Positions 365 through 39,291 of a stretch of 39,291 nt of DNA are shown piece after piece. Made by a program: the position numbers and the translations under genes. Source of the DNA: an uncultured Nitrosomonadales bacterium (lineage in GTDB: Bacteria > Pseudomonadota > Gammaproteobacteria > Burkholderiales > Gallionellaceae). Within the stretch, counting starts at the first letter, position 1. Each line of letters opens with the position of its first letter. The notes beneath the pieces are model-generated. The model saw nothing but the letters and a program-made list of their open reading frames with translations, made no database searches and was not told the DNA's origin. The stretch covers positions 1 to 39,291 of the forward strand of contig CAIWRI010000048.1 in assembly GCA_903915035.1 (NCBI GenBank), given 5' to 3'.

Positions 365-1990
365 ATGCTCGAAGACATCAAGAAAACCCTGTGGGCAACT
401 GCCGACAAGCTGCGCGCCAATATAGATGCCGCCGAATATAAACATTTAGTGCTGGGATTAATTTTCGTAAAATTCGTCTCTGATAGCTTCGTCTCCCGCC
501 GTGCTGAGCTGCAAAGTCGCTTTACCGATAAGTCGGATGACTATTACCTGCCTGACTGCACTGATGAGCTGTTAGCTGCTGAGTTGGAAGACCGGGACTA
601 TTACACGGAGGGGAACGTTTTCTGGGTGCCGGAATCCGCCCGCTGGGAAACTTTGCGTGCAGCAGCCAAGCAACCGGATATAGGTCGTCGCATAGATGAG
701 GCGCTGGTGGTGATTGAGACAGAGAACCCCAAGCTCAAGGGCATCTTGGATAAACGCTATGCGCGTGCGCAGTTGCCGGACGGCAAGTTGGGTGAACTTG
801 TGGATCTGGTTTCAACCATAGGATTCGGTACTAACGCAGGACAAGCACGGGACATATTAGGTCAGGTATATGAATACTTTCTCGGTCAGTTTGCCAGTGC
901 AGAGGGCAAGCGCGGCGGTCAGTTCTATACCCCCGCCTCTATCGTAAAAACCCTGGTAGCGGTACTCGCACCTCATCATGGCAAGGTGTATGACCCCTGC
1001 TGCGGTTCAGGCGGGATGTTCGTGCAGTCTGAAAAGTTTATCGAGTCGCATGGCGGCAAGTTAGGTGACGTGGCGATCTTCGGGCAGGAATCGAACCCGA
1101 CGACATGGCGACTGGCCGCGATGAACTTAGCCATACGCGGCATCGACTTTAATCTGGGGCGCGAACCGGGGGATACTTTCACCAGGAATCAGCATCCGGA
1201 TTTGCGTGCCGACTTCATCTTGGCCAATCCACCGTTTAATATCAGCGACTGGTGGCATGGCAGCTTAACGGGCGACCCGCGTTGGGTATATGGTGACCCG
1301 CCAGCTGGCAACGCCAACTATGCGTGGTTGCAGCACATGCTGTATCACTTAAAACCGTCGGGTCGTGCAGGTATTGTGCTGGCGAACGGTTCGATGAGTT
1401 CCAGCCAAAACAGCGAGGGCGATATACGCCGTGCGATGGTTGAGGCGGACGTGGTGGAGGTGATGATAGCCTTGCCAGGACAGTTGTTCTTCAATACCCA
1501 GATACCCGCTTGTCTATGGTTCCTCAAAAAACCCGCCGGGAGAGGGAGTGAGGGAGAGGGGAAAAAACGCTGCGGCGAAGTGCTGTTCATAGATGCCCGT
1601 AAGCTGGGGCACATGATTAGCCGGGTGCAGACCGAGCTGACCGATGAAGTGATAGAACGCATTGCAGGCACGGTAGCCGCATGGCGTGGCGAAATCCCCC
1701 ACCCCTCGCCCTCCGGGAGAGGGGTGGGGGGTGAGGGAGGGGGGCTAGTGGATAATTATCAGGATATTCCCGGCTATTGTCGCAGCGTTAAGTTAGCTGA
1801 AATCGCCGAACACGGTTATGTTCTCACGCCCGGTCGCTATGTTGGTGCTGAAGCGGTCGAAGACAACGATGAGGACTTCGCCGACAAAATGCAGACCTTG
1901 ACCGAAAAGCTGGGTGAGCAGATGACTAAGGGCGTGGAACTTGACCAGTTGATACGGCAGAAGCTGGGAGGACTGGGCTATGTGTTCTGA
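365..1990 (+). CDS. hsdM: Type I restriction-modification system, DNA methyltransferase subunit HsdM
   Basis: This is the N6-adenine methyltransferase subunit of a type I R-M enzyme. It modifies the site recognised by HsdS and joins HsdR in the restriction complex. The 541-residue product has the helical HsdM N-terminus (starting MLEDIKKTLWATADKLR), the SAM-binding motif DPCCGSGGMFV near residue 215, and the catalytic NPPF motif near residue 288. The tail LDQLIRQKLGGLGYVF is typical of the family. Two G/C-rich stretches interrupt the family pattern in frame: PAGRGSEGEG between the WFLKK strand and GEVLFIDARK, and about 18 residues starting IPHPSPSGRGVGGEGGG before the DNYQDIPGYC motif. Both are encoded by palindromic repeat DNA. 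No strong Shine-Dalgarno precedes the ATG, but the N-terminal match supports this start. Confidence 0.95.
   Translation: MLEDIKKTLWATADKLRANIDAAEYKHLVLGLIFVKFVSDSFVSRRAELQSRFTDKSDDYYLPDCTDELLAAELEDRDYYTEGNVFWVPESARWETLRAAAKQPDIGRRIDEALVVIETENPKLKGILDKRYARAQLPDGKLGELVDLVSTIGFGTNAGQARDILGQVYEYFLGQFASAEGKRGGQFYTPASIVKTLVAVLAPHHGKVYDPCCGSGGMFVQSEKFIESHGGKLGDVAIFGQESNPTTWRLAAMNLAIRGIDFNLGREPGDTFTRNQHPDLRADFILANPPFNISDWWHGSLTGDPRWVYGDPPAGNANYAWLQHMLYHLKPSGRAGIVLANGSMSSSQNSEGDIRRAMVEADVVEVMIALPGQLFFNTQIPACLWFLKKPAGRGSEGEGKKRCGEVLFIDARKLGHMISRVQTELTDEVIERIAGTVAAWRGEIPHPSPSGRGVGGEGGGLVDNYQDIPGYCRSVKLAEIAEHGYVLTPGRYVGAEAVEDNDEDFADKMQTLTEKLGEQMTKGVELDQLIRQKLGGLGYVF
1538..1561 (+). repeat. G-rich repeat (GGGAGAGGG type) in frame within hsdM
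   Basis: The DNA holds two GGGAGAGGG blocks separated by AGTGA and encodes GRGSEGEG in a variable loop of HsdM. Its core matches the repeats at 1696-1744 and, as the complementary sense, 7580-7656. It looks like half of a palindromic element. Confidence 0.6.
1696..1744 (+). repeat. Palindromic G/C-tract repeat in frame within hsdM
   Basis: Perfect 11-bp arms CCCCACCCCTC (1697-1707) and GAGGGGTGGGG (1719-1729) flank a short loop, and a further G-rich tail GTGAGGGAGG follows. The reading frame stays open through the element and adds roughly 18 residues where other HsdM proteins have a short link before the DYQD-PG motif. Confidence 0.75.
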
Positions 1991-2018
1991 ACTATTGCTA
2001 TCATGAGGGGAAATTAAC

Positions 2019-2465
2019 ATGTTGTATTTAAATATCGACCATTTGCGACGCTGTATGCAGACGCTCAATTCCTCACTGGCGCTCTATAGGAAGGCTGAGC
2101 CGGACAGTATTGATCAGGAAGTATTTCGCAACGCCATCGTAAAAAGCTATGAATTGACACAGGAAACTGCCTTCAAGCTGCTGAAAAAAGCGCTGAAAGT
2201 ATATGGTCACGGCGGGAAAAAACTGGAATCGACACCGGTAAAGGATATTCTGCGACTCGCTGCGGTTCATGATTTGATGACGCTGGCAGAGGTGGAGCGC
2301 TGGTTTGCCTATCGCGACAATCGCAATAATACCGCTCATGATTACGGCGAGCAATTCGCCAGTGAAACGCTGATGCTGATCCCTGGCTTTTTGCAGGATA
2401 TTGGCATGCTGGCCGATATGCTTGAGCGCAAACTGGGCAAGCAGGGAGAACATCTTGACAATTGA
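2019..2465 (+). CDS. hepT: HEPN-domain toxin HepT / HI0074-type nucleotidyltransferase substrate-binding protein
   Basis: This is a 148-residue all-helical protein of the HI0074/HEPN family, the usual partner of a minimal nucleotidyltransferase. It carries the HEPN ribonuclease motif R102-N-N-T-A-H107-D-Y109, that is RX4HXY. In characterised HepT/MntA pairs the Arg and His are catalytic and the Tyr is the residue AMPylated by MntA to silence the toxin. The family also includes proteins long annotated simply as nucleotidyltransferase substrate-binding proteins, so toxicity is inferred. The start has a good Shine-Dalgarno (GAGGGG, about 8 nt upstream). It lies 28 bp after hsdM and its end overlaps mntA by 11 bp. 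The location inside a type I R-M operon suggests it guards the operon or adds abortive defence. Confidence 0.85.
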   Translation: MLYLNIDHLRRCMQTLNSSLALYRKAEPDSIDQEVFRNAIVKSYELTQETAFKLLKKALKVYGHGGKKLESTPVKDILRLAAVHDLMTLAEVERWFAYRDNRNNTAHDYGEQFASETLMLIPGFLQDIGMLADMLERKLGKQGEHLDN

Positions 2466-2787
2466 ATCGCTGCATTTGCCACCCGTCTATTTAAAGATGG
2501 TACGGGATATTTTGCGCGCGCATTTACCTGATGCAGAAATATGGGCTTATGGCAGTCGCGTGAACGGCGATTTTTATGAGGCCAGCGATCTCGATCTGGT
2601 GGCACGCCAGCCGGATGATTTGACGCGCAGACAAACCCGTCTGTACGAGGCAATCGAAGCATTTTCAGAAAGCAATCTGCCCATCATCGTGCAAATAGTC
2701 GATTGGGCCAGCATTCCGGCTGAATTCCGGAACGAGATTATTGCTAACCATGCCGTCATCGCCCTTCCGCAGGGGGCCGGGGGATGA
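2455..2787 (+). CDS. mntA: Minimal nucleotidyltransferase MntA-type antitoxin
   Basis: This 110-residue MNT-family nucleotidyltransferase has a perfect GSX10DXD signature: G33-S34, then D45-L-D47 in YGSRVNGDFYEASDLDL. In HepT/MntA systems this enzyme transfers AMP from ATP to the HEPN toxin. I place the start at the TTG at 2455, because AGGGAG lies just upstream and the family N-terminus begins here. Extending further upstream only translates hepT in another frame. It overlaps hepT by 11 bp and ends in an ATGA overlap with the next short ORF. A DNA-repair polymerase-like role is unlikely at this size. Confidence 0.85.
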   Translation: MTIESLHLPPVYLKMVRDILRAHLPDAEIWAYGSRVNGDFYEASDLDLVARQPDDLTRRQTRLYEAIEAFSESNLPIIVQIVDWASIPAEFRNEIIANHAVIALPQGAGG

Positions 2788-2966
2788 GTTCTAAAATCAC
2801 GCAAAACCAGGCTGACTATATTCAATATATCCGTCAGTGGTATTCGTTCTATGCAACATCGCCCGTAATTAGCCAACAGGCTGTTGGCCAATTAACGCAA
2901 CCGCCTGTTGCCCAATTTGTGAAGAACAGTTTTGCGGAACGGGGAGGGCTGGGGTATGAGTGCTGA
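2784..2966 (+). CDS. Short hypothetical protein between mntA and hsdS
   Basis: This 60-residue ORF starts in an ATGA overlap with mntA, and its stop lies 11 bp inside the hsdS start, so it could be translated by coupling. I do not recognise the protein. Its middle contains an eight-residue repeat, QQAVGQLT then QPPVAQFV, from an imperfect 24-bp direct repeat at about 2874-2921. The Gln-rich V-Q-L pattern faintly recalls the QQPADQLPW segment of the DUF1016 protein further down this operon, so a decayed fragment of such a gene is possible. It has no catalytic motif and no membrane segment. It may be a spacer rather than a gene. Confidence 0.35.
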   Translation: MSSKITQNQADYIQYIRQWYSFYATSPVISQQAVGQLTQPPVAQFVKNSFAERGGLGYEC

Positions 2967-4302
2967 GTGGTTAGTCACCACCCTTGGGCACATTTGTGAT
3001 GCTCAAGGAGGCGCAATACAGACAGGTCCATTTGGTAGTCAGCTTCACACATCGGACTACAAAGAGACGGGCATTCCTGTGGTTATGCCTACCAATATTG
3101 GTGATGGTGGCATTGTTGAGGATGCCATTGCCCGAATAGGTCACTCTGATGTCGAGCGGCTATCCCAGCATAAGCTACGCTTGGGAGATATAGTTTTCAG
3201 TCGCCGTGGCGATGTAACCAAGAATGCCTTAGTGCGCCCGCACGAAGTTGGCTGGTTGTGCGGCACCGGTTGCCTAAAAGTCAGGCTGAATGACGGTGCT
3301 ATTGCCAACGCAAAATTCATATCTCATTGCCTGAGGCAGCCAGATATTAAGGATTGGCTGATTCGTCATGCCGTAGGTGCCACGATGCCGAATCTGAATA
3401 CAGGCATACTTTCGGCAGTTCCCATTCATTTACCTCCCTTGCAAATCCAACTTGAGATTGCTGCAATGTTGGGTGCCCTTGATGACCGTATCGCCCTGCT
3501 GCGTGAAACCAACGCCACCCTGGAAGCCATCGCGCAGGCACTGTTCAAGTCGTGGTTTGTTGACTTTGACCCGGTACATGCTAAGGCACAAGGTATCGCA
3601 CCGGAAGGCATGGACGAGGTCACGGCTGCGCTGTTTCCTGACAGCTTCGAGGAGTCGGAGCTGGGCTTGGTGCCGAAGGGGTGGCGCACGAATGCTGTGT
3701 ACGATCTGGCACAATTCATTAATGGCGCTGCCTATAAGGCGTTTGAGCCGAACTCTGAACAGCGTGGTTTGCCAATTATTAAGATTGCCGAGCTTAAGGC
3801 GGGCGTTTCTATGCAGACTGGTTATTCTGATGTCAGCATGCCTGAAAAGTATCGGATAGCAGCTGGAGATATTTTGTTTTCTTGGTCTGGAAATCCTGAC
3901 ACATCGATTGATACTTTTGTCTGGCTACACGGCAGCGCTTGGCTCAATCAGCATATTTTTCGAGTTGTTCCAAACACATCAAGTGAGCGTTCTTTTGTAT
4001 TGATGATGCTCAAGTACCTGAATCCGATATTTGCAGAGCTTGCTCGAAATAAGCAAACCACTGGGTTAGGACATGTAACTGTTGCCGACTTGAAAAGATT
4101 GCGTGTAGTTAAACCGAGTGATTCCGTACTTCAGCAATGGAATGAGAGCGTTGATCCATTGATCGAACGAGCATTCAACGTTGCCCAGCAAGCTCAAACC
4201 CTTGCCACCCTGCGTGACACGTTGCTGCCCCGGCTGATTTCCGGTCAACTGCGCTTACCTGCCGAAGTATCGGTACTGGCAAGCCTGAGGCAGACATATT
4301 GA
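2956..4302 (+). CDS. hsdS: Type I restriction-modification system, specificity subunit HsdS
   Basis: This is the DNA-recognition subunit, 448 residues from the ATG at 2956, which has a strong G-rich ribosome-binding site (GGGGAGGGCTGGGG). It has the two-target-domain layout. TRD1 covers about residues 5-155 (FSRRGDV, then the MPNLNTGILSAVPIHLPPLQ border). A conserved central helix follows (ALDDRIALLRETNATLE, KSWFVDFDPVHAKAQG). TRD2 covers about residues 245-400, and a distal helix ends in DTLLPRLISGQL. The two half-targets set the bipartite recognition site, which cannot be read from sequence alone. A second copy of the C-terminal DTLLPRLISG segment occurs at 6115-6150, implying recombination at this locus. 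Confidence 0.93.
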   Translation: MSAEWLVTTLGHICDAQGGAIQTGPFGSQLHTSDYKETGIPVVMPTNIGDGGIVEDAIARIGHSDVERLSQHKLRLGDIVFSRRGDVTKNALVRPHEVGWLCGTGCLKVRLNDGAIANAKFISHCLRQPDIKDWLIRHAVGATMPNLNTGILSAVPIHLPPLQIQLEIAAMLGALDDRIALLRETNATLEAIAQALFKSWFVDFDPVHAKAQGIAPEGMDEVTAALFPDSFEESELGLVPKGWRTNAVYDLAQFINGAAYKAFEPNSEQRGLPIIKIAELKAGVSMQTGYSDVSMPEKYRIAAGDILFSWSGNPDTSIDTFVWLHGSAWLNQHIFRVVPNTSSERSFVLMMLKYLNPIFAELARNKQTTGLGHVTVADLKRLRVVKPSDSVLQQWNESVDPLIERAFNVAQQAQTLATLRDTLLPRLISGQLRLPAEVSVLASLRQTY

Positions 4303-4318
4303 TTGAGAAAGCCATCAC

Positions 4319-5830
4319 ATGATTGATTTTCACGCTGAACTACACACGCTAGTTGACCTCGCTCAAATGGCAGAATCAGTATCGCTGGAATGCAAGCTGG
4401 CTCAAGGACAGGATGGGAAGGGCGAACTACCCAAAGATTTCTGGCCGACCTACTCTGCGATGGCCAACACTCACGGCGGACTGGTGCTGCTAGGCGTGCG
4501 TGAAAAGAACAGACAATTTACTGTGGCGGGTATAGCGAATGTCGAAAAAGTTCGCGCTGACTTGTTTAATAATCTGAACAATCGTGGCAAGGTCAGTGCT
4601 AATCTACTGACAGATCAAGATGTCACGGCTTTGACGCTGGAAGGAAAGACGGTATTAGCAATCCATATTCCGCCAGCGACGCGCAAGCAAAAGCCGGTTT
4701 ATCTTAACGGCAACCCGTTGGGAAATACTTACCGCCGTTTGCATGAAGGTGACCGGAACTGCGATGAAGAAACGGTCAAGCGTATGCTGGCGGAACAGCT
4801 GGATGAGAGCCGGGATACGCGAATTCTCGATCGTTTCAGTCTTGCTGATCTCGACTTGGACAGCCTGCACGCTTACCGTAATGCGTTTGCGGTGCAGCGA
4901 ACCGATCATCCTTGGATTGCTGTTGATGATAAAACATTTTTGCAGCGCATCGGCGGTTGGGGCACGGATCGCAGCACAAGCCAACAGGGGCTGACATTGG
5001 CTGGCCTGCTAATGTTTGGACAATCGACTTTCATTACTGAGGCGGCACCGCTGTATTTTCTCGACTATCAGGAATTGCCGGCCGACACGACATCGCAAAC
5101 ACGCTGGCTTGATCGCGTGGTGCCGGACGGATCATGGTCGGGCAATTTGTACGATTTCTATCGCAAGGTGATACGCAAGCTGACGGCTGATCTGAAGATC
5201 CCCTTTATGCTCAAGGGCGACACTCGCATCGACGATACGTATCTGCATCAAGCCTTGCGCGAGGCTTTGGTGAACACGCTGATCCATGCCGACTATTCTG
5301 ACCGCGCCTCGGTGTTGGTCATCAAGCAGCCTTCCGGTTTTGTCTTTCGCAATCCAGGGATCATGCGGGTGCCCGCTGAAATAGCTTTACATGGTGGTGC
5401 CAGCGATTGTCGTAATCGCACGCTGCATCAGATGTTTTTACTGATCAATCTGGGTGAGCGCGCCGGTTCAGGCTTGCCAAAAATTCGTGCTGGCTGGGAA
5501 GCTGACGGACATGTGCTGCATTTGTCCGATTCGTTCGAACCGTTTGATCAAACCCGGCTGGAAATGCGTTGGGCTGCTGACTTGTCTCAAGGTATCACCG
5601 CCGCTAAGGTTGACGATCAGGGGAAAACGTCGGGGAAAACGTCGGGGAAAACGTCGGGGAAAATTCTCGCGCGGATCCGTGAAAATTCTGCCATCACGAT
5701 TCCTGAATTGGCACTGTCGATAGGGTTGACCGAACGCACGATTGAACGCAATCTCAAGAAATTACAGGAGGACCACCTTTTGTCGCGTATAGGGCCTGCC
5801 AAAGGCGGCCATTGGAAGGTAAGTACATGA
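4319..5830 (+). CDS. AlbA_2 / Schlafen-like ATP-binding transcriptional regulator
   Basis: This 503-residue protein is of the AlbA_2-HATPase_c_4 type, often annotated as an RNA-binding or ATP-binding regulator and often found inside type I R-M loci. Residues about 15-140 form the AlbA_2 (Schlafen-like) domain, with ESVSLECK and MANTHGGLVLLGV. Residues about 325-405 match the GHKL-like HATPase_c_4 segment, with LREALVNTLIHADY, NPG and GSGLPKI. The last 60 residues are a winged helix (ELALSIGLTERTIERNLKKL). Linker and winged helix are joined by GKTSGKTSGKTSGK, coded by a 12-bp tandem repeat. It starts 16 bp after hsdS. Its job in the operon is unproven: regulation of hsd genes or an added defence effector are both possible. 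Confidence 0.82.
   Translation: MIDFHAELHTLVDLAQMAESVSLECKLAQGQDGKGELPKDFWPTYSAMANTHGGLVLLGVREKNRQFTVAGIANVEKVRADLFNNLNNRGKVSANLLTDQDVTALTLEGKTVLAIHIPPATRKQKPVYLNGNPLGNTYRRLHEGDRNCDEETVKRMLAEQLDESRDTRILDRFSLADLDLDSLHAYRNAFAVQRTDHPWIAVDDKTFLQRIGGWGTDRSTSQQGLTLAGLLMFGQSTFITEAAPLYFLDYQELPADTTSQTRWLDRVVPDGSWSGNLYDFYRKVIRKLTADLKIPFMLKGDTRIDDTYLHQALREALVNTLIHADYSDRASVLVIKQPSGFVFRNPGIMRVPAEIALHGGASDCRNRTLHQMFLLINLGERAGSGLPKIRAGWEADGHVLHLSDSFEPFDQTRLEMRWAADLSQGITAAKVDDQGKTSGKTSGKTSGKILARIRENSAITIPELALSIGLTERTIERNLKKLQEDHLLSRIGPAKGGHWKVST
5621..5664 (+). repeat. 12-bp tandem repeat (GGGAAAACGTCG, 3 copies plus part of a fourth)
   Basis: Three exact copies of GGGAAAACGTCG (5621-5632, 5633-5644, 5645-5656) are followed by a partial one. 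They encode GKTS units just before the winged-helix domain. Because the unit is a multiple of three, copy-number change would lengthen or shorten the linker without a frameshift. Confidence 0.9.
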
Positions 5831-5949
5831 CCGACCAACTCAAACAAAAATCTAAACAGCTACACGGTTCAGATATTGCCCCCGACAAGGCAATCTGGTG
5901 GCGTGCTGATAATCCGGCAGCAGGCTGGGGGCTAAAGGTATTTCCATGA
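5827..5949 (+). CDS. Possible 40-residue ORF or gene fragment after the AlbA_2 regulator
   Basis: An ATG overlaps the regulator's stop (ATGA) and opens a 40-codon frame beginning MTDQLKQKSKQLHGSDIAPD and ending GWGLKVFP. I do not recognise it. The coupled start suggests it was once the beginning of a longer gene that is now cut off before the structured RNA unit at 5953-6029. It could equally be non-coding. Confidence 0.25.
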   Translation: MTDQLKQKSKQLHGSDIAPDKAIWWRADNPAAGWGLKVFP

Positions 5950-5952
5950 GGT

Positions 5953-5986
5953 ATAAAAACAAAAGCCCCCGACTATCGCCGGAGGC
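5953..5986 (-). terminator. Rho-independent terminator on the minus strand
   Basis: The stem GCCTCCG (5986-5980) pairs with CGGGGGC (5971-5965) through an 8-nt loop with one G-T pair. It is followed by TTTTGTTTTTAT. There is no gene on the minus strand upstream that it could serve, apart from the candidate RNA. Confidence 0.7.
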
Positions 5987-6029
5987 AGTTGCCGACCGGG
6001 AATCCCCAGTCCGTAGCGCGCATTCTATA
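5953..6029 (-). ncRNA. Candidate ~65-nt structured RNA with its own promoter and terminator
   Basis: Read on the minus strand, a TATAGA hexamer (6029-6024) with a GC-rich discriminator would start a transcript near 6017. The transcript would contain a hairpin GACTGGG-GATT-CCCGGTC (6011-5994, one G-T pair) and then a terminator hairpin with a T-rich tail. No clear -35 is visible. It lies antisense to the operon direction, between the AlbA_2 regulator and the hsdS relic. It could be a free small RNA, or an attenuated leader of a lost gene. There is no homology evidence; this is read from layout only. Confidence 0.45.
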
Positions 6030-6066
6030 AGAAACGGCATGTTGAGTCACATAAAAAGGCAAAGTA

Positions 6067-6183
6067 ATGATGATTGACGCTCAGTACAAACGAAACTCCC
6101 GTGTTATTTTTCCCGACACGTTGCTGCCGCGTCTGATTTCCGGTGAGTTACCGGAAACCGCAGCGGAGGATGCTACGCTATGA
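6067..6183 (+). pseudogene. 3' relic of a second hsdS
   Basis: A 38-codon open frame carries DTLLPRLISGEL (from 6115), matching DTLLPRLISGQL at the C-terminus of the intact HsdS (from 4216), with near-identical DNA over about 30 bp. Upstream of this point the match stops. The relic ends in an ATGA overlap with the DUF1016 gene, the coupling expected if a full hsdS once sat directly before it. This indicates that the stretch between the two hsdS ends was inserted or duplicated. Confidence 0.75.
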
Positions 6184-7235
6184 CACCGGCATCACCGCTG
6201 TGCGCAGCACCTGAAGGTTACACCGACTGGCTGAAGCAGCTTAAAGCAGATATTGCCACTGCACAGCAGAGGGCTGCACTCGCGGTTAATGCCGAACTGG
6301 TGCAACTCTACGGGCGCATCGGTCGCGATATATTACAGCGCCAGAAGGAACAAGGCTGGGGTGCAAAGGTGATAACGCGTCTGGCACATGACTTGAAAGA
6401 TGCATTCCCGGATATGCGCGGCTGGTCATCCAGCAATCTCAAGTACATGCGTTATTTTTCACAGCATTGTGCGGATGGTAAATTTGGTCAGCAGCCCGCT
6501 GACCAATTGCCGTGGTTTCATATTGTAATATTGCTGACCAAGCTGAAAAACAACACCGACCGTGAGTGGTACGCTGTGCAAACGGTGCAACAGGGGTGGT
6601 CGCGCACTACGCTGGAGATAAACATCAAGAATTGTCTACGCCAGAGACAGGGTGCTGCGGTAACAAATTTTGTGGCGCGCTTGCCACTATCCGATTCTGA
6701 ACTTGCCCACGATACCTTGAAAGACCCCTATCTCTTTGACTTTCTTGGTCTGGGTGAGGATGCACATGAGCGGGAAATCGAATCCGGGTTGATTCGCCAT
6801 ATCACCCGCTTTTTGCTGGAGTTGGGCGCAGGATTTGCATTTGTCGGACGGCAATTCAGACTGGAAGTTGCGGGGGATGAGTTTTTTATTGATCTGCTTT
6901 TTTACCATACGCGTCTGAAGTGTTATGTGGTCATTGAACTGAAAGCCACGGCGTTCAAGCCCGAACACGCAGGCCAGCTCAATTTTTATCTGGCCGCAGT
7001 AGATGCTCAGATAAAATCTGTAGATGACAAACCGACTATAGGCCTGTTGCTGTGCAAGAAGCAAAACCGTCTGGTGGCGGAGTACGCGCTGTCCGGTATT
7101 GACAAGCCCATCGGTGTGGCTGAGTACCAATTGCTGCGAGACTTACCGGAAATATTAGGACAGAGCCTGCCGAGCATCGAAGAAATTGAAGCCGAGCTGG
7201 CGGGCGACTTGAATGATCTGGCTGAGCCGACATGA
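6180..7235 (+). CDS. DUF1016 (YhcG-type) PD-(D/E)XK nuclease-domain protein
   Basis: This 351-residue protein has the DUF1016 N-terminal helical domain (about residues 13-160: AAL-VNAELVQLYGRIGRDI, GWSSSNLKYMRYF, LPWFHIVILL). A C-terminal PD-(D/E)XK nuclease-like domain follows, with FFIDLLFYH around residue 239 and the catalytic pattern VIELK around residue 255, then a QLNFYL helix. Such proteins are frequent companions of type I R-M genes; their exact contribution is not settled. The start overlaps the hsdS relic's stop (ATGA) and the stop overlaps hsdR by 4 bp, so it is translated within the hsd operon. It is full length and looks intact. Confidence 0.88.
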   Translation: MTPASPLCAAPEGYTDWLKQLKADIATAQQRAALAVNAELVQLYGRIGRDILQRQKEQGWGAKVITRLAHDLKDAFPDMRGWSSSNLKYMRYFSQHCADGKFGQQPADQLPWFHIVILLTKLKNNTDREWYAVQTVQQGWSRTTLEINIKNCLRQRQGAAVTNFVARLPLSDSELAHDTLKDPYLFDFLGLGEDAHEREIESGLIRHITRFLLELGAGFAFVGRQFRLEVAGDEFFIDLLFYHTRLKCYVVIELKATAFKPEHAGQLNFYLAAVDAQIKSVDDKPTIGLLLCKKQNRLVAEYALSGIDKPIGVAEYQLLRDLPEILGQSLPSIEEIEAELAGDLNDLAEPT

Positions 7236-10200
7236 CCGAAGACCAACTGGAACAGGAAACCCTAAGCTGGCTGGGCAGCGTGGGGTACACGCACCTTTAC
7301 GGTCCCGACATTGCTCCCGATGGAGATAATCCTGAACGCGGCGATTATCGTCAGGTCGTACTGGTAGAACGACTGCGTGCTGCGGTCAATAAACTCAATC
7401 CCGCCATACCCGTAGCGGTACGAGATGACGCAGTCAGGCAAGTAATTGATTTGGGTATTCCGGTGTTGCTCCCGGCAAACCGCCATTTTCATAAGCTGCT
7501 GGTGACCGGTGTGCCTGTCCAGTATCAATCGGGCGGTGAGACACGCGGTGACTTCGTGCGGCTTATCGACTGGAGTACTCCCTTCTCCCCACCCTCATCC
7601 CTACCCTTCTCCCCACCCTCACCCTCATCCCTACCCTTCTCCCAGAGGGAGAAGGGTAACGAGTATCTGGCAATTAACCAGTTCTCTATCAAAGGTACAC
7701 ACCACACCCGCCGCCCGGACATCATTCTGTTCATCAACGGACTACCGCTTATCTTGCTGGAATTAAAAAATCCAGCTGACCAGAGCGCTGATCTTTTAAG
7801 AGCGTTTGACCAGCTACAGACCTACAAAGCGCAAATCCCCGATGTGTTCCAATACAACCAGATACTGGTTATCACGGATGGCACAGAGGCGCAAATGGGC
7901 GGATTGTCTAGTAATATGGAACGCTTCATGCAGTGGCGTACTATCGACGGGGAAACATTAGACCCGCTGGGGCAGTTTAATGAGTTGGAGACGATGGTGC
8001 GCGGGGTGTTGGCTCCGGTCTATTTGCTCGACTACCTGCGTTTTTTTGTGTTATTTGAGGATGACGGTACGCTGGTGAAGAAGATTGCCGGCTATCACCA
8101 GTTCCACGCGGTGCGCGCGGCTATCAGTCAGGTGGTGGTCGCATCCCGTCCGGGCGGCACGCATAAGGGTGGTGTGGTCTGGCATACTCAGGGTTCCGGC
8201 AAGAGCATTACCATGACTTGTTTTGCTGCGAGGGCAATGCAGGAAGCGGCAATGGAGAATCCCACCATCGTGGTGATTACCGACCGCAACGATTTGGACG
8301 GGCAATTATTCGGCGTGTTTTCACTGGCGCAAGACCTGTTGCGTGAGCAACCCGTGCAAGTGGAGACCCGGCAGGATTTACGTGCCAAGTTAAGCAATCG
8401 CCCCTCAGGGGGTATCGTATTCGCCACCATCCAAAAATTCATGCCGGGCGAAGATGAGGATACCTTCCCTGTGTTATCTGATCGTAGCAACATTGTCGTC
8501 ATCGCAGACGAAGCACACCGGACTCAATACGGTTTTGAGGCCAAGCTCAAGGGCAAGCCAGGTCATGAGACCTATCAGGCAGGCTATGCCCGGCATCTGC
8601 GTGATGCGCTGCCCAATGCAACCTTCGTGGCATTTACGGGCACACCGGTGTCAAGTGAAGACAGGGATACGCGCTCGGTGTTCGGGGAATACATCAGCAT
8701 CTACGATATGCAGCAGTCCAAGGAAGACGGTGCTACGGTTGCCATCTATTTTGAGTCACGCCTGGCTAAGTTGTCGCTAAATGCAGCGGACTTGCCGCTG
8801 ATGGATGCCGAGGTGGATGAGCTGGCGGAGAACGAGGAAGACAGCCAGCAGGCACTGCTTAAAAGTCGCTGGGCAGCACTGGAAAAAGTGGTGGGGGCTG
8901 AGCCGCGTATCGTCAGTGTTGCAGCAGATTTGGTCGCGCATTTTGAGGAACGAAGCGCTGCGCAGACCGGAAAAGCCATGGTGGTTGCTATGAGTCGTGA
9001 TATTTGCGTGCACTTGTACAACGAGATTATCAAGCTACGCCCGGACTGGCACGACCCCGATCCTGAAAAGGGCTTCATCAAAATCGTGATGACAGGCTCG
9101 GCTTCTGACAAGGCGCTGTTACGTCCTCACATTTACAGCGGACAGGTCAAAAAGCGGCTGGAGAAGCGCTTTAAAAATCCTGCCGACCCGCTGCAACTGG
9201 TGATTGTCAGGGATATGTGGCTGACCGGTTTCGATGCGCCTTGCGTGCACACGTTATATGTCGACAAGCCGATGAAGAGCCATAATTTGATGCAGGCGAT
9301 TGCCCGGGTTAATCGGGTGTTCAAGGATAAGCAAGGCGGGTTGGTGGTGGACTATATTGGCATTGCCAACGAGCTACGTTCCGCGCTGAAGGAATACACC
9401 GCAAGCCACGGGCGCGGTCGCCCCACCGTCGATGCAGCCGAAGCCTACGCGGTGCTTGAAATGAATTTGGATATTTTACGGGGCATAGTATATGGCTACG
9501 ATTACAGTGACTTTTTGACGACGGGTCACAAGTGTCTGGCAGGTGCGGCTAACCACGTGTTAGGTGTCAAGGATGGCAAGAAGCGCTTTGCCGATATCGC
9601 ACTGGCGATGAGCAAAGCATTTTCGCTGTGTTGCACGCTGGATGAAGCGAAAGCGGTACGTGAAGAAGTGGCGTTTTTTCAAGCGGTCAAAGTGATACTG
9701 ACCAAGCGCGACATCAGCCAGAAGAAACGCACCGACGAGGAGCGGGAAATGGCTATCCGGCAGATTATCAATAGTGCGGTCGTCTCGGCAGAAGTGGTCG
9801 ATATCTTCGATGCGGTTGGTCTGGATAAGCCCAATATCGGTATATTGGATGATGCCTTCCTTGCTGATGTGCGTAACCTGCCGGAGCGTAATCTTGCAGT
9901 GGAGTTGCTGGAACGGCTGCTTGAAGGCGAAATCAAGAGCCGTTTCAAGAGCAATGTGGTGCAGGAAAAGAAGTTCTCAGAGTTGCTGAGCAATGTGATT
10001 AAGCGTTACCAGAACCGCGCTATCGAGACCGCCCAGGTCATCGAAGCGCTTATCGAGATGGCGAAGAAATTCCGTGCTGTCGCGGGTCGCGGTGAAGCAT
10101 TGGGGCTGACGGAGGACGAAATCCGCTTCTATGACGCGCTGGCTGACAACGAATCGGCGGTGCGGGAGCTTAGTGACGAGACGATGAAGAAAATCGCCCA

Positions 10201-10390
10201 TGAACTGACCGAAAGCTTGCGCCAGAACCTTAGCGTCGACTGGTCAGAGCGTGCCAGTGTGCAGGCGAAATTGCGGCTGATGGTCAAGCGTATCCTGCGC
10301 AAATACAAATATCCGCCAGACCAGCAGGAAGCCGCGGTACAACTGATTTTGCAACAGGCACAAGCACTCGGCGAGGCGTGGATGCCATAA
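7232..10390 (+). CDS. hsdR: Type I restriction-modification system, endonuclease/translocase subunit HsdR
   Basis: This 1052-residue motor and nuclease subunit translocates and cuts unmodified DNA when joined to HsdM and HsdS. The N-terminal nuclease motif is RPDIILFINGLPLILLELK, with Asp near 163 and E-x-K near 176. The superfamily 2 helicase motifs follow: GSGKS near residue 321, DEAH near 425, FTGTP near 470, FDAP and QAIARVNRVFK. A helical C-terminal region docks to the methylase. Between IDW and NEYLAINQF, where the family has a short link, about 24 residues of Ser/Pro/Leu repeats are inserted (STPFSPPSSLPFSPPSPSSL), coded by a C-rich repeat ending in a perfect palindrome. The reading frame is intact, so the enzyme may still work. 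Confidence 0.95.
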   Translation: MTEDQLEQETLSWLGSVGYTHLYGPDIAPDGDNPERGDYRQVVLVERLRAAVNKLNPAIPVAVRDDAVRQVIDLGIPVLLPANRHFHKLLVTGVPVQYQSGGETRGDFVRLIDWSTPFSPPSSLPFSPPSPSSLPFSQREKGNEYLAINQFSIKGTHHTRRPDIILFINGLPLILLELKNPADQSADLLRAFDQLQTYKAQIPDVFQYNQILVITDGTEAQMGGLSSNMERFMQWRTIDGETLDPLGQFNELETMVRGVLAPVYLLDYLRFFVLFEDDGTLVKKIAGYHQFHAVRAAISQVVVASRPGGTHKGGVVWHTQGSGKSITMTCFAARAMQEAAMENPTIVVITDRNDLDGQLFGVFSLAQDLLREQPVQVETRQDLRAKLSNRPSGGIVFATIQKFMPGEDEDTFPVLSDRSNIVVIADEAHRTQYGFEAKLKGKPGHETYQAGYARHLRDALPNATFVAFTGTPVSSEDRDTRSVFGEYISIYDMQQSKEDGATVAIYFESRLAKLSLNAADLPLMDAEVDELAENEEDSQQALLKSRWAALEKVVGAEPRIVSVAADLVAHFEERSAAQTGKAMVVAMSRDICVHLYNEIIKLRPDWHDPDPEKGFIKIVMTGSASDKALLRPHIYSGQVKKRLEKRFKNPADPLQLVIVRDMWLTGFDAPCVHTLYVDKPMKSHNLMQAIARVNRVFKDKQGGLVVDYIGIANELRSALKEYTASHGRGRPTVDAAEAYAVLEMNLDILRGIVYGYDYSDFLTTGHKCLAGAANHVLGVKDGKKRFADIALAMSKAFSLCCTLDEAKAVREEVAFFQAVKVILTKRDISQKKRTDEEREMAIRQIINSAVVSAEVVDIFDAVGLDKPNIGILDDAFLADVRNLPERNLAVELLERLLEGEIKSRFKSNVVQEKKFSELLSNVIKRYQNRAIETAQVIEALIEMAKKFRAVAGRGEALGLTEDEIRFYDALADNESAVRELSDETMKKIAHELTESLRQNLSVDWSERASVQAKLRLMVKRILRKYKYPPDQQEAAVQLILQQAQALGEAWMP
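7580..7656 (+). repeat. C-rich tandem and palindromic repeat in frame within hsdR
   Basis: Units of CCCTTCTCCCCACCCTCATC type occur about three times with 24- and 30-bp spacing. The run ends in the perfect palindrome CCCTTCTCCC-AGA-GGGAGAAGGG (7634-7656). The open frame passes through it. The core is the same CCCTTCTCCC/GGGAGA(A)GGG theme as in the two hsdM insertions. Confidence 0.8.
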
Positions 10391-36243: not shown

Positions 36244-37110
36244 ATGTCATCAAAACAAAATATCATGCCGGTTGCCGGAATATTAAGCGGGGCGCTGGTA
36301 TGGGGACTGATCTGGTACCCTTATCGCGTGTTACAAATCGCCGGCATTTCAGCTCCCTTGGCGACATTGATTAGCTATTTGCTGGCGATGCTGTTCGGCG
36401 CCTTCATGTTGCCCGGGGTGTTTCGCGAGCTGCGCGGCGGGTGGGCGGCCTTGCTGGTGTTTTCCGCAGGCTGGGCTAATTTCGGTTACGTGCTGGCCAT
36501 GTTGCACGGCGAAGTGATGCGGGTGCTGCTGCTGTTTTATCTCGCGCCGCTCTGGACTCTCCTGTTGTCATACTGGTTGCTAGGTGAACGGCTCAACCGC
36601 TACGGTTATCTGGTGATCGCGCTGTCGCTGGGTGGTGCCTTCGTGATGTTATGGAAACCCGAACTGGGCATGCCGTTCCCGCAAAACAGTTCGGAATGGC
36701 TGGGTTTGTCGGCAGGTGTAGGCTTTGCGCTGTCCAATGTGGTGTCCAGACGTGCGAATCACCTGAGCGTTGAAGCCAAATCGTTCAGCATCTGGCTGGG
36801 CACCGCACTGCTCACCGCCCCGTTGTTATGCTGGCAGGGCGGCGTGTCGTTACAGGGAATCGCCGCCGTATACTGGCTGATACTTTTACTGCTGGGTATT
36901 GCGCTGTGCGCGGTCAGCTTCGCCGTGCAATACGGTATTACGCACATGCCGGCAAACCGCGCGATGCTGTTGTTTCTGTTCGAACTGGTCATCGCTGCGA
37001 TAGCATCTTATTTCCTGGCGAATGAGGCGATGGGGCTGCGGGAATGGCTAGGAGCAGTATTGATCGTATCCGCCAGCCTGTTGTCCGGAAAGCTGTATGC
37101 TGTCAAATAA
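36244..37110 (+). CDS. EamA/DMT-superfamily transporter
   Basis: This 288-residue inner-membrane protein has about ten predicted membrane segments in two EamA repeats. Examples are AGILSGALVWGLIWYPYRVL, LLLFYLAPLWTLLLSYWLL with GERL after it, and LLFLFELVIAAIASYFLANE. The substrate cannot be told; family members export amino acids, drugs or other metabolites. It is divergent from dapC with about 50 bp between starts and converges on fbaB. The sharing of a promoter region with a lysine-pathway gene is suggestive only. Confidence 0.88.
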   Translation: MSSKQNIMPVAGILSGALVWGLIWYPYRVLQIAGISAPLATLISYLLAMLFGAFMLPGVFRELRGGWAALLVFSAGWANFGYVLAMLHGEVMRVLLLFYLAPLWTLLLSYWLLGERLNRYGYLVIALSLGGAFVMLWKPELGMPFPQNSSEWLGLSAGVGFALSNVVSRRANHLSVEAKSFSIWLGTALLTAPLLCWQGGVSLQGIAAVYWLILLLLGIALCAVSFAVQYGITHMPANRAMLLFLFELVIAAIASYFLANEAMGLREWLGAVLIVSASLLSGKLYAVK

Positions 37111-37151
37111 CATGCCTGGCGCACGCCTGATGCCATCAGGGCAAGCCTGCA

Positions 37152-38201
37152 CTAGGCCACGGTAATCTCGTTATTCAGATACACATCCTGGATTGCCTTG
37201 AGCAGTATGACGCCGTCAGCCATCGGTTTCTGAAAGGCTTTGCGGCCTGAAATCAGCCCCATGCCACCGGCGCGTTTATTGATAACAGCGGTGCGAACCG
37301 CCTGATGCAAATCATCCTTGCCCGATTCCCCGCCTGAGTTGATCAACCCTGCACGTCCCATAAAGCAATTGGCCACCTGATAACGCACCAGATCGACCGG
37401 ATGTTCGGTGGTCAACTTGCTGTAAACCAGCCCGCTGGTTTTGCCAAACTGGAGGGCGTTGTAGCCGCCGTTGTTTTCGGCCATTTTCTGTTTAATGATA
37501 TCGGCGTTGAGCGTGGCGGCCAGATGATTGGCCTGCCCGGTCAGATCCGCTGAGACGTGATAATCAACGCCTTCCTTTTTGAAGGCCGGATTGCGTAAAT
37601 ACGCCCACAGCACGGTTGCCATGCCTAAATTATGTGCGTGCTCAAACGCATCAGAGACTTCCTGAATTTGCCGCCTTGATTCATCAGAGCCAAAAAATAT
37701 CGTCGCGCCTACGGCCACAGCCCCCGTATCGAAAGCCTGATTCACCGTGGCGAACAGCGTCTGGTCGAACTTGTTGGGATAGGTGAGCAACTCGTTATGA
37801 TTGATTTTAACGATGAAAGGAATCTTGTGGGCGTAGCGCCGCGCGATGGAGGCGAGTACGCCTAAGGTAGAGGCGACACCGTTGCAACCGCCTTCGATGG
37901 CAAGTTTGATGATGTTTTCGGGATCGAAGTACAGCGGATTGGGCGCGAATGAAGCCCCGGCGGAATGCTCTACGCCCTGATCGACGGGCAGAAGGGAGAG
38001 ATAGCCGGTATCAGCCAGTCTGCCGTGCCCGTATAAGGTCTGCAAACTGCGCAGCACGGCAGGCTTTCTGTCCTTGACCGACACCACGCGATCCACATAA
38101 TCAGGACCTGGCAGTTGCAGTAATTCTTTAGGGATGCCGCTACAGCGGTGGTTTAAAAGGTATTGCGCTTCGTCAGCCAGTAATTGCACGATATTCGTCA
38201 T
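37152..38201 (-). CDS. fbaB: Class I fructose-bisphosphate aldolase, FbaB type
   Basis: This 349-residue DhnA-family aldolase cleaves fructose 1,6-bisphosphate through a Schiff base. It is very close to Escherichia coli FbaB as I recall it: [87 protein letters not shown] and [14 protein letters not shown]. Start at the ATG 38201, which has CAGGGAG 7 nt upstream; the frame open to 38237 has no such site. It is transcribed alone as far as can be seen. Confidence 0.96.
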
Positions 38202-38567
38202 GATTTCACTCCCTGTGATTAAGCTTGAGAGCGTCATGTTACTCCTGTTGCCATGAACTATCTATCTGAGCAGATACATTATTTTTTATATCAAGGCTGG
38301 TTTTATCTCAGGAAAATCCCAGCCGCTTATCTTGTTATCGTGAGGAAATGCTTTTCAATTCTGCAAAGAACGGAGTGTCAGTAAAATTGCCCGCACTTCC
38401 GGGGTGCTGGATTTTCCCGGAAGAATCAGCCTTTGCATTAAAGGCAATTTCAGCATATCCGGCTTGCGCTGTTAGCAATTGGCAAAAATGCATAGGCCAT
38501 TTGGCATATTGTTTCGTCGTTTAAATCGCGTTATTGTTCGTTCCAGAGGGTAGCCGGGTTTCTCAGC
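38202..38567. other. Upstream region of fbaB with hairpins, no gene
   Basis: No coding frame is supported. It must contain the fbaB promoter. Two clean hairpins are seen: GGCTGG/CCAGCC around 38298-38326 and CTTCCGGG-(12 nt)-CCCGGAAG at 38396-38423. Neither has a T-run, so they are not typical terminators. Confidence 0.45.
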
Positions 38568-38861
38568 ATGAAGTAAACGGTGAGCGGCTTGAAAAAACAG
38601 GCAAGCAGGAGCGCTCACCGGGTAAGCGGTATCAAGATTCAGGCAAGCAGGAGCGCTCATCCGGCAAGCAGGAGCGCTCACCGGGTAAGCGGTATCAAGA
38701 TTCAGGCAAGCAGGAGCACTCATCCGGCAAGCAGGAGCGCTCATTAGGGAAGAAATATCAAGATTGAGTGAAGTCGCATCAAGGTTTAGTGACGCCGTCT
38801 TAAGATTTCGTGTGGCGGCCTCAAGATTCCGGCAAGCCATAGCACTTATCCGGCATCAGGT
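38568..38861. repeat. 14-unit, 21-bp-period mosaic tandem repeat array
   Basis: Units of exactly 21 bp run from 38568 to 38861. Each has a 9-bp head, mainly AGCGCTCAY or ATCAAGATT, and a 12-bp tail such as CCGGCAAGCAGG, CAGGCAAGCAGG or CGGGTAAGCGGT. Units at 38610-38672 and 38673-38735 form a 63-bp duplication with one mismatch (at 38718). Outer units are more diverged. Both strands have open frames through the array that give heptapeptide repeats (plus: GKQERSP, GKRYQDS; minus: LNLDTAY, PVSAPAC), but neither frame has a ribosome-binding site. Nature unknown. Confidence 0.9.
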
Positions 38862-39032
38862 ACCGCGTCTTGTTTCACAGGGGAGTGTACCGGCTTGGCG
38901 GACATTTTTATTGAGGGAGGGCAGCACAAAAACGCTTGGCTGCACATGGGCAATACCAGAAAAAAGTGAATGACAGCAGCATTGAAAATAAACCGTCTGT
39001 TAACCGTTTCATAAGACAAGGGAGTGACTATC

Positions 39033-39291
39033 ATGCCGAATACAACTTTTATGCCGCACAGCAATATTGGCAAACTCGAACTGCTGGAACACGCAGCCGC
39101 CACGTTTCCGGCGTATCAGATCCTTTTTGAAATCAACGATACTGACACGAAGGCCCTGAAAAACGATGCGTTCAATCTGCGTAAGGCTTACACCTTAAAG
39201 CATCAGGTGCAAAGTTACGGGCATCGCTGTACCGCCTACATGAATCTGCTCTGGGATGGCGGCGGCGGTGATACCTCCTGGCCTGTCGCCC
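39033..39291 (+). CDS. Unrecognised protein, N-terminal part, cut by window end
   Basis: The ATG at 39033 has a good Shine-Dalgarno (AAGGGAGTG, 7 nt upstream) and the frame stays open to the window end: 86 residues starting MPNTTFMPHSNIGKLELLEH, with no signal peptide. It continues TFPAYQILFEIND, then a segment rich in Lys, Tyr and His, then MNLLWDGGGGD. I do not recognise a family. It lies just downstream of the 21-bp repeat array, with about 170 bp between. Confidence 0.7.
   Translation, partial: MPNTTFMPHSNIGKLELLEHAAATFPAYQILFEINDTDTKALKNDAFNLRKAYTLKHQVQSYGHRCTAYMNLLWDGGGGDTSWPVA

Follow-up and report, generated by a model that had tools for sequence, protein, structure and literature searches.

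The window (the whole stretch of DNA analysed, 39,291 nucleotides long) belongs to a genome of 3.16 Mb in 155 contigs, referred to here as G000. Its right-hand end carries a promoter-like element, a 21-bp tandem array and the start of a gene, annotated as follows with the evidence in brackets.

38492-38509, plus strand: near-palindrome ATAGGCCATTTGGCATAT, probable activator site of a promoter (0 mismatches; genome-wide sites)
38532-38537, plus strand: -10-like box TATTGT, 22 nt after the dyad (offset count in collected sites)
38579-38851, plus strand: 21-bp array of 13 units, predicted non-coding, probable 5' leader (TRF, register count, plus-frame stops)
38600-38725, plus strand: 63-bp block in two copies of three units each (62/63 identity; TRF period 63)
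39018-39024, plus strand: AAGGGAG, probable ribosome-binding site (reading of the sequence)
39033-39291, plus strand: start of a gene of a ~230-aa family, leaving the window (homologues 52-72% identical in genomes G004, G006 and G055)

TRF reported a period of 21 at 38598-38752 with 0% indels and a period of 63 at 38600-38743 with 98% matches and 0% indels. An earlier sequence-only reading had described 14 units at an exact 21-bp step without any indel over 38568-38861; the step and the absence of indels were borne out, but the full in-register units number 13, an opening unit being followed by seven that are close copies (38600-38746) and five that have diverged (38747-38851). Lag-21 identity in the array peaked at 0.714 over 84 nt, compared to at most 0.476 in 1000 shuffled versions of 38238-39032. 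The 63-bp triplet that had been noticed as duplicated with one mismatch is indeed so, its two copies (38600-38662 and 38663-38725) being identical at 62 of 63 positions. Two alternating 9-bp heads had also been proposed: heads were recovered, AGCGCTCA in four units and AGCACTCA in one, ATCAAGATT exactly in three units and with 1-2 mismatches in three others, but they do not strictly alternate. The array consensus contains no significant palindrome because two heads are mixed in it; GAGCGCTC and ATCaaGAT, both present in the array, are each a dyad in themselves.

Both strands had been considered open, with a heptad-repeat protein as one suggested product. Across 38568-38861 stops number 5, 5 and 3 in the plus frames and 1, 10 and 6 in the minus frames; what stands of the claim is a minus-strand ORF of 122 aa (38472-38840), which covers most of the array. 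A period that is a multiple of three would suit a repeat protein or a leader peptide, as would the long open plus frames of related arrays on contigs C78, C124 and C35 of G000. However, among 45 related arrays the plus frames were open no more often than the minus frames (35/135 each), 18 of the 45 had no open plus frame at all, and a 20-bp step was found both in an array of the same genome (C134) and in the leader at locus L299. Since all plus frames of the window array contain stops and the 45 arrays are equally open on both strands, the window array is very probably non-coding, and we reject a coding role as extremely improbable. The C134 array (L205, 1-220) has a lag-20 identity of 0.89, lies behind a dyad-like site and runs off its contig; contigs C12 and C52 start with a 20-bp array like it.

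The ATAGGCCATTTGGCATAT pattern, with up to three mismatches, occurs at 25 sites in G000, compared to one site for the reversed pattern. TAnnnT lies exactly 22 nt downstream of the dyad in 24 of 52 collected sites (a count that takes in reverse readings of the near-palindrome), and any other offset was seen at most three times. Given this fixed distance, the dyad and the -10 box resemble an activator-dependent promoter, from which transcription would start near 38544. The array begins about 40 nt after the TATTGT box and the ATG stands at 39033; the leader of the window gene would be about 490 nt long. A sigma-54 reading of the dyad was dropped, because the sites lack a conserved -12 GC at the distance required. 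Eight dyad sites remote from arrays are followed, 40-113 nt downstream, by the start of an ORF of 90 aa or more. The dyad with its -10 box at 22 nt recurs throughout the genus as a promoter-like element (25 sites in G000; relatives at L047-L060) and also precedes ordinary genes, named by eye as a C1-type peptidase, a UDP-sugar dehydrogenase and a DUF2235-like protein; it looks like an undescribed regulon.

What the sequence-only reading could not see is that the gene following the window array is a member of one particular family of proteins. Contig C117 (C117:3-140) overlaps the end of the window at 100% identity and the reading frame ends soon after, so that this gene copy may be truncated. 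Intact homologues of 228-230 aa are found within the genus in G004, G006 (three) and G055. Family members open with [YF]-x-P and usually end near G-x-W-S. Database searches gave nothing below E 0.03 in Pfam (35 members), nothing above cut-off in NCBIfam (eight members), no match to the PADLOC defence-system models (five proteins) and a best E in the PDB of 0.25 for one family sequence and 1.1 for the family profile. No DNA-binding, Rep or ParR domain was recognised in the Pfam (n=35) and NCBIfam (n=8) searches; individual members gave hits to phage tail-fibre families (best E 0.0004, in 1 of 35). When their profiles were compared, the two protein sets fell into a single superfamily (probability 98, E 1.7e-13, 203 columns); with 10 against 3 sequences the probability had been about 3%, with 13 against 29 it was 98%.

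Arrays upstream of one protein family

The association of 21-bp arrays with genes of this family is, in our judgement, nearly certain. Its period test scanned lags from 12 to 40 over as much as 900 nt upstream of each gene and scored the best one, lag 21 being counted at an identity of at least 0.5. We fetched 112 family loci, a part of the listed places (101 in one listing, 83 in another); 107 had at least 300 nt upstream and five had less. The C135 pseudogene (array 0.57), a G070 copy with stops (no array), a weak G017 match and a C36 fragment were left out of this count. The best upstream lag was 21 in 93 of the 107 genes, and in 87 of 101 when six loci reached through an array were removed. 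In the downstream flanks of family genes lag 21 was found in 1/67 and other lags in 15. Among 587 control windows of 650 nt, lag 21 came out in 26 and the other multiples of three between 15 and 30 in 12-19 each; these 26 possibly overstate the background, since the control windows come from array-rich genomes. Lag-21 leaders were present in 23 of 24 genomes, the exception being Mangrovibacterium (0/1), and we take the hosts to belong to Pseudomonadota, Bacteroidota, Acidobacteriota, Planctomycetota and Verrucomicrobiota.

Fourteen loci missed in this test: L231, L253, L289, L290, L276, L298, L299, L261, L303, L311, L314, L321, L326 and L334. Near lag 21 were L290 (lag 21, 0.49), L276 (lag 21, 0.46), L321 (lag 21, 0.46) and L231 (lag 22). 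The 20-bp leader array of L299 was scored as lag 40, and L311 gave lag 14 at 0.94, with lag 21 at 0.93 becoming the best when lags 15-30 were scanned. L298 contains simple repeats and the gene at L261 is N-truncated.

The intact genus homologues, found by protein in genomes that were not array-selected, carry a 21-bp array upstream in 5/5 cases, each with its own unit. Lag 21 was best for all of them (0.55, 0.58, 0.61, 0.62 and 0.81), the period staying at 21 in G004 and G006 even where unit identity drops to about 0.55-0.6. In G000 a profile search retrieved members on contigs C151, C142, C139, C11, C144, C99, C81 and C117, a partial one on C48 and pieces on C135. Arrays precede the genes on C142 (0.76), C139 (0.68), C11 (0.81), C144 (0.98), C99 (0.74) and C117 (0.50), as well as the broken copy on C135; the N-truncated gene on C81 has none in front, and the upstream side of C151 is cut off by the contig start. 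On C142 (L066, 5023-5607) the units turn round mid-array, from TTAGGCGCC to GGCGCCTAA, in an array that adjoins the family gene and lies upstream of its dyad.

The association has two weak points: the genomes outside the genus were selected for a 21-bp array, and most stretches with the pattern lack a nearby family gene. A scan of a species-genome collection for three GAGYRCTC at a 21-bp step gave 89 stretches, in which coding and non-coding arrays are mixed. The final profile found the family gene in seven of them, the array ending 64-324 nt before the gene in 7/7; in 663 kb of pattern-stretch DNA there was no further family match, and the other 82/89 have no family gene within the fetched DNA. 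The seven come from Prevotellaceae, Dysgonamonadaceae, two other Bacteroidota records sharing one locus, Phycisphaerales, Thiodictyon and an Acidobacteria genome. No family gene lies in the DNA fetched around the 21-bp arrays at L084 and L147 (Moorena), L114 and L128 (Dendronalium) and L077 (Aquisalibacillus), so the class of 21-bp arrays is probably heterogeneous.

Distribution and possible spread

The sequence-only reading had named the lack of other copies as a sign of a neutral minisatellite; we found many such arrays in G000 itself. Related arrays with GAGYNCTC triplets lie on C26, C35, C78, C124 and C153, one more array starts at the end of C69, and related array heads stand at the ends of further contigs; units on C139, C142, C144, C11 and C99 look different. 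Leaving both gaps of a three-unit pattern free between 8 and 18 gave 45 matches on the plus strand of G000, each at a step of 21 (45/45), and 0 for the reversed control. A stricter three-unit pattern, run against 398 genomes of the phylum, hit the own genome only. When the 75 other genomes of the genus were searched with the window array, none matched the array part; nine matched in the dyad region only (query 2-44).

A neutral minisatellite in a tolerant leader would account for the fast change of units, for the recent 63-bp duplication and for the 14 misses among 107 genes. One fixed period before the genes of one family in 23/24 genomes, against 1/67 downstream flanks, does not fit with neutrality, nor do array sizes that peak at 10-15 units (40/60 arrays); we reject this reading too, as quite improbable.

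Family members were found in 20 of 36 array-chosen genomes, with up to 28-29 copies each, and 16 of the 36 had none. In contrast, 1/398 genomes of the phylum and 1/300 of the order contain the family, in both cases G000 itself, a comparison to be read as suggestive since the genome sets differ in phyla. Both gammaproteobacterial array genomes searched (Thiodictyon, Methylococcales) hold the family. Such copy numbers and patchy spread would be expected if the array were the by-product of a mobile array-and-gene cassette that spreads within genomes, serving its copying and not the control of the gene. An identical 128-bp head on C48 and C69 points the same way, as do the arrays on C26 and C124, behind which lie short remnants similar to the gene start. 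However, the C48/C69 identity possibly reflects an assembly overlap, and strong divergence separates the paralogues, whose arrays differ. We rejected a plasmid or phage origin, since plasmids (four query proteins) and phages (one query) gave no match and no relative was found on viral contigs. Overall, we consider the cassette reading unlikely.

The short-read contigs of G000 break at array elements, as seen at the ends of C69, C97, C11, C99, C76, C6 and C3. C99, C76 and C6 have an identical tail, so that a further dispersed element is possible.

A possible phased DNA platform or RNA leader

Across the loci the 21-bp step is kept, while unit sequence is private to each locus and the consensus differs from one to the next. 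As 21 bp make two turns of B-DNA, a given site would recur on a single face of the helix, unit after unit. The reading that we tentatively put first, while holding it to be short of probable, is that the array serves as a cis-acting, helically phased DNA platform for the downstream gene. The locus would then have two parts, about 10-15 tandem 21-bp private units followed by the ~230-aa family gene; a protein, either the product of the gene or a partner, would assemble along the platform and control the gene in cis, like iterons or a parC centromere. Private unit sequences would prevent cross-talk among paralogous loci. The suggestion of phased protein-binding sites, already made from the sequence, thus remains the better of the two first offered, with a constant step, units that vary by locus and dyad symmetry in 22/60 arrays.

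Palindromic units (p<0.05) were found in these 22 arrays, including 17 of the 51 gene-first ones. The remaining 38/60 arrays and the window consensus are not significantly palindromic, and this counts against the platform together with the absence of a recognised DNA-binding domain in the family protein and the position of the C142 dyad, between array and gene. Another point against it is that the gene-sense strand of the arrays is richer in A than in T (mean AT skew 0.098, p 2.6e-5), a bias that a purely double-stranded role does not need.

Comparison of paralogues bears on recognition by the encoded protein. Where N-terminal parts are 57-77% identical, array similarity is weak (0.42-0.60, against a shuffled-unit baseline with a median of 0.35-0.37 and a 95th percentile of 0.39-0.42), so that arrays seem to be renewed faster than proteins; this is awkward for recognition by the encoded protein. 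Protein and array distances were correlated in Mantel tests, with r = 0.43 for the N part and 0.21 for the C part in G475, and 0.40 and 0.52 in G760 (permutation p ≤0.02). Given the residual array similarity of the closest paralogues, this correlation looks like common descent rather than clear recognition.

The A excess would fit with an array that acts as RNA, a possibility that we rate as less likely than the platform. A repetitive 5' leader, or its fragments, with self-complementary units would pair mutually or with other transcript copies, and translation would be regulated, protein held, or a locus-specific RNA assembly formed. The position of the arrays agrees with this. In the window the promoter-like element stands 5' of the array, as it does at eight related loci (C78, C26, C124, G004, three in G006, and G055; mismatches 1-5). 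For 36 of 92 arrays, fewer than 60 nt separate the array end from the profile match to the family gene, leaving scant room for an intervening promoter. In Bacteroidota, TACCTTT, a -7 word of this phylum, was found within 150 nt upstream of the array at 12/51 loci, compared to one on the opposite strand; however, it is biased 7 to 1 towards the sense strand further upstream as well, and the looser TAnnTTTG shows little strand bias (17 to 12). At many loci, transcription would start upstream of the array and place it in the 5' leader.

Arrays folded better than their unit-shuffled versions (mean z -1.8), but the opposite strand folded at least as well (mean z -2.5, scored against plus-strand shuffles and so no clean control). 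In arrays with a dyad z above 2, G-T departures from symmetry were about as frequent as A-C departures (138 vs 154), the pattern expected of symmetry in DNA and not of RNA pairing with G-U. Rfam covariance models gave 0 matches up to E 1 over 37000-39291, and an Rfam family identity for the array was rejected.

Because the step is kept while the sequence is not, and because the step equals two turns of B-DNA, we rank the DNA platform first and an RNA function second, ahead of a mobile by-product, neutrality and coding. With slightly more reserve than for the platform, we propose that these loci may represent a new kind of genetic unit, in which a private phased 21-bp array is the address of one gene in a multicopy family. 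If so, one genome could hold up to about 30 orthogonal copies, and the control or organisation of each would run via its own quickly renewed array, and the purpose of constant-length 20-21-nt repeats would be explained for these genomes.

Comparison with known repeat systems

In the iterons of plasmid rep genes and in centromere arrays of the parC type, tandem sites about two helical turns apart lie just upstream of a gene, and the protein that binds these sites forms an assembly along them and in many cases represses the operon that encodes it. The arrays described here share the spacing and the upstream position, but no Rep or ParR domain was recognised, the family was not found on plasmids and the units are private to each paralogue. 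In CRISPR and other guide arrays, too, repeats that are part conserved and part variable lie next to a protein gene. Here, in contrast, repetition extends over the complete unit, with no alternation of a constant repeat and unique spacers, and no PADLOC defence-system model matched five family proteins. The STRR of cyanobacteria are intergenic tandem arrays, as are those studied here, and the Moorena and Dendronalium loci match the 21-bp pattern; however, the genomes behind these loci (G768, G769) have no match to the family.

The closest precedent is that of Subirana and Messeguer 2021 (PMC8161180), whose main text describes bacterial tandem repeats of constant 20-21-nt length in many bacterial groups, mostly non-coding and with function not known, variable and species-specific in sequence, with several array families per genome. 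The present arrays resemble them in the 20-21-nt step, the variable sequence, the several families per genome and the mostly non-coding character. As in that account, length is fixed (21 in the window, in 45/45 triplets and in 93/107 leaders; 20 bp on C134), sequence is variable and species-specific (75 genus genomes without an array match; a consensus that differs by locus) and no amino-acid repeats are encoded. A short sequence common to most arrays of one species is a further trait of the class; in G000 the GAGYNCTC triplets recur on five contigs, but five others have units of a different appearance. They differ in heading genes of one family, whereas the main text of PMC8161180 names no partner gene under the terms upstream, downstream or gene family. 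Our limited searches of the open-access literature, which reached PMC6749651, PMC8625621 and PMC9426551, found no article linking such repeats to a protein family. The array alone therefore belongs to the reported 20-21-nt class, and the array-plus-gene unit is the new part, as judged on the open-access literature.

A class of 20-21-nt repeats is thus tied in part to one unnamed family in at least five phyla, which makes it a testable system: the gene can be deleted, the protein purified, and the array bound, shortened or shifted. The arrays also offer a clear example of conserved spacing combined with free sequence.

Two observations concern other repeats and genes. In a Bacteroidota genome (L092, ~4230-4500), a long inverted repeat brackets a 21-bp array. 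Elsewhere in the window, positions 365-10390 hold type I restriction-modification genes (hsdM, a specificity subunit and hsdR), and a 12-bp tandem repeat lies within this region at 5620-5663.
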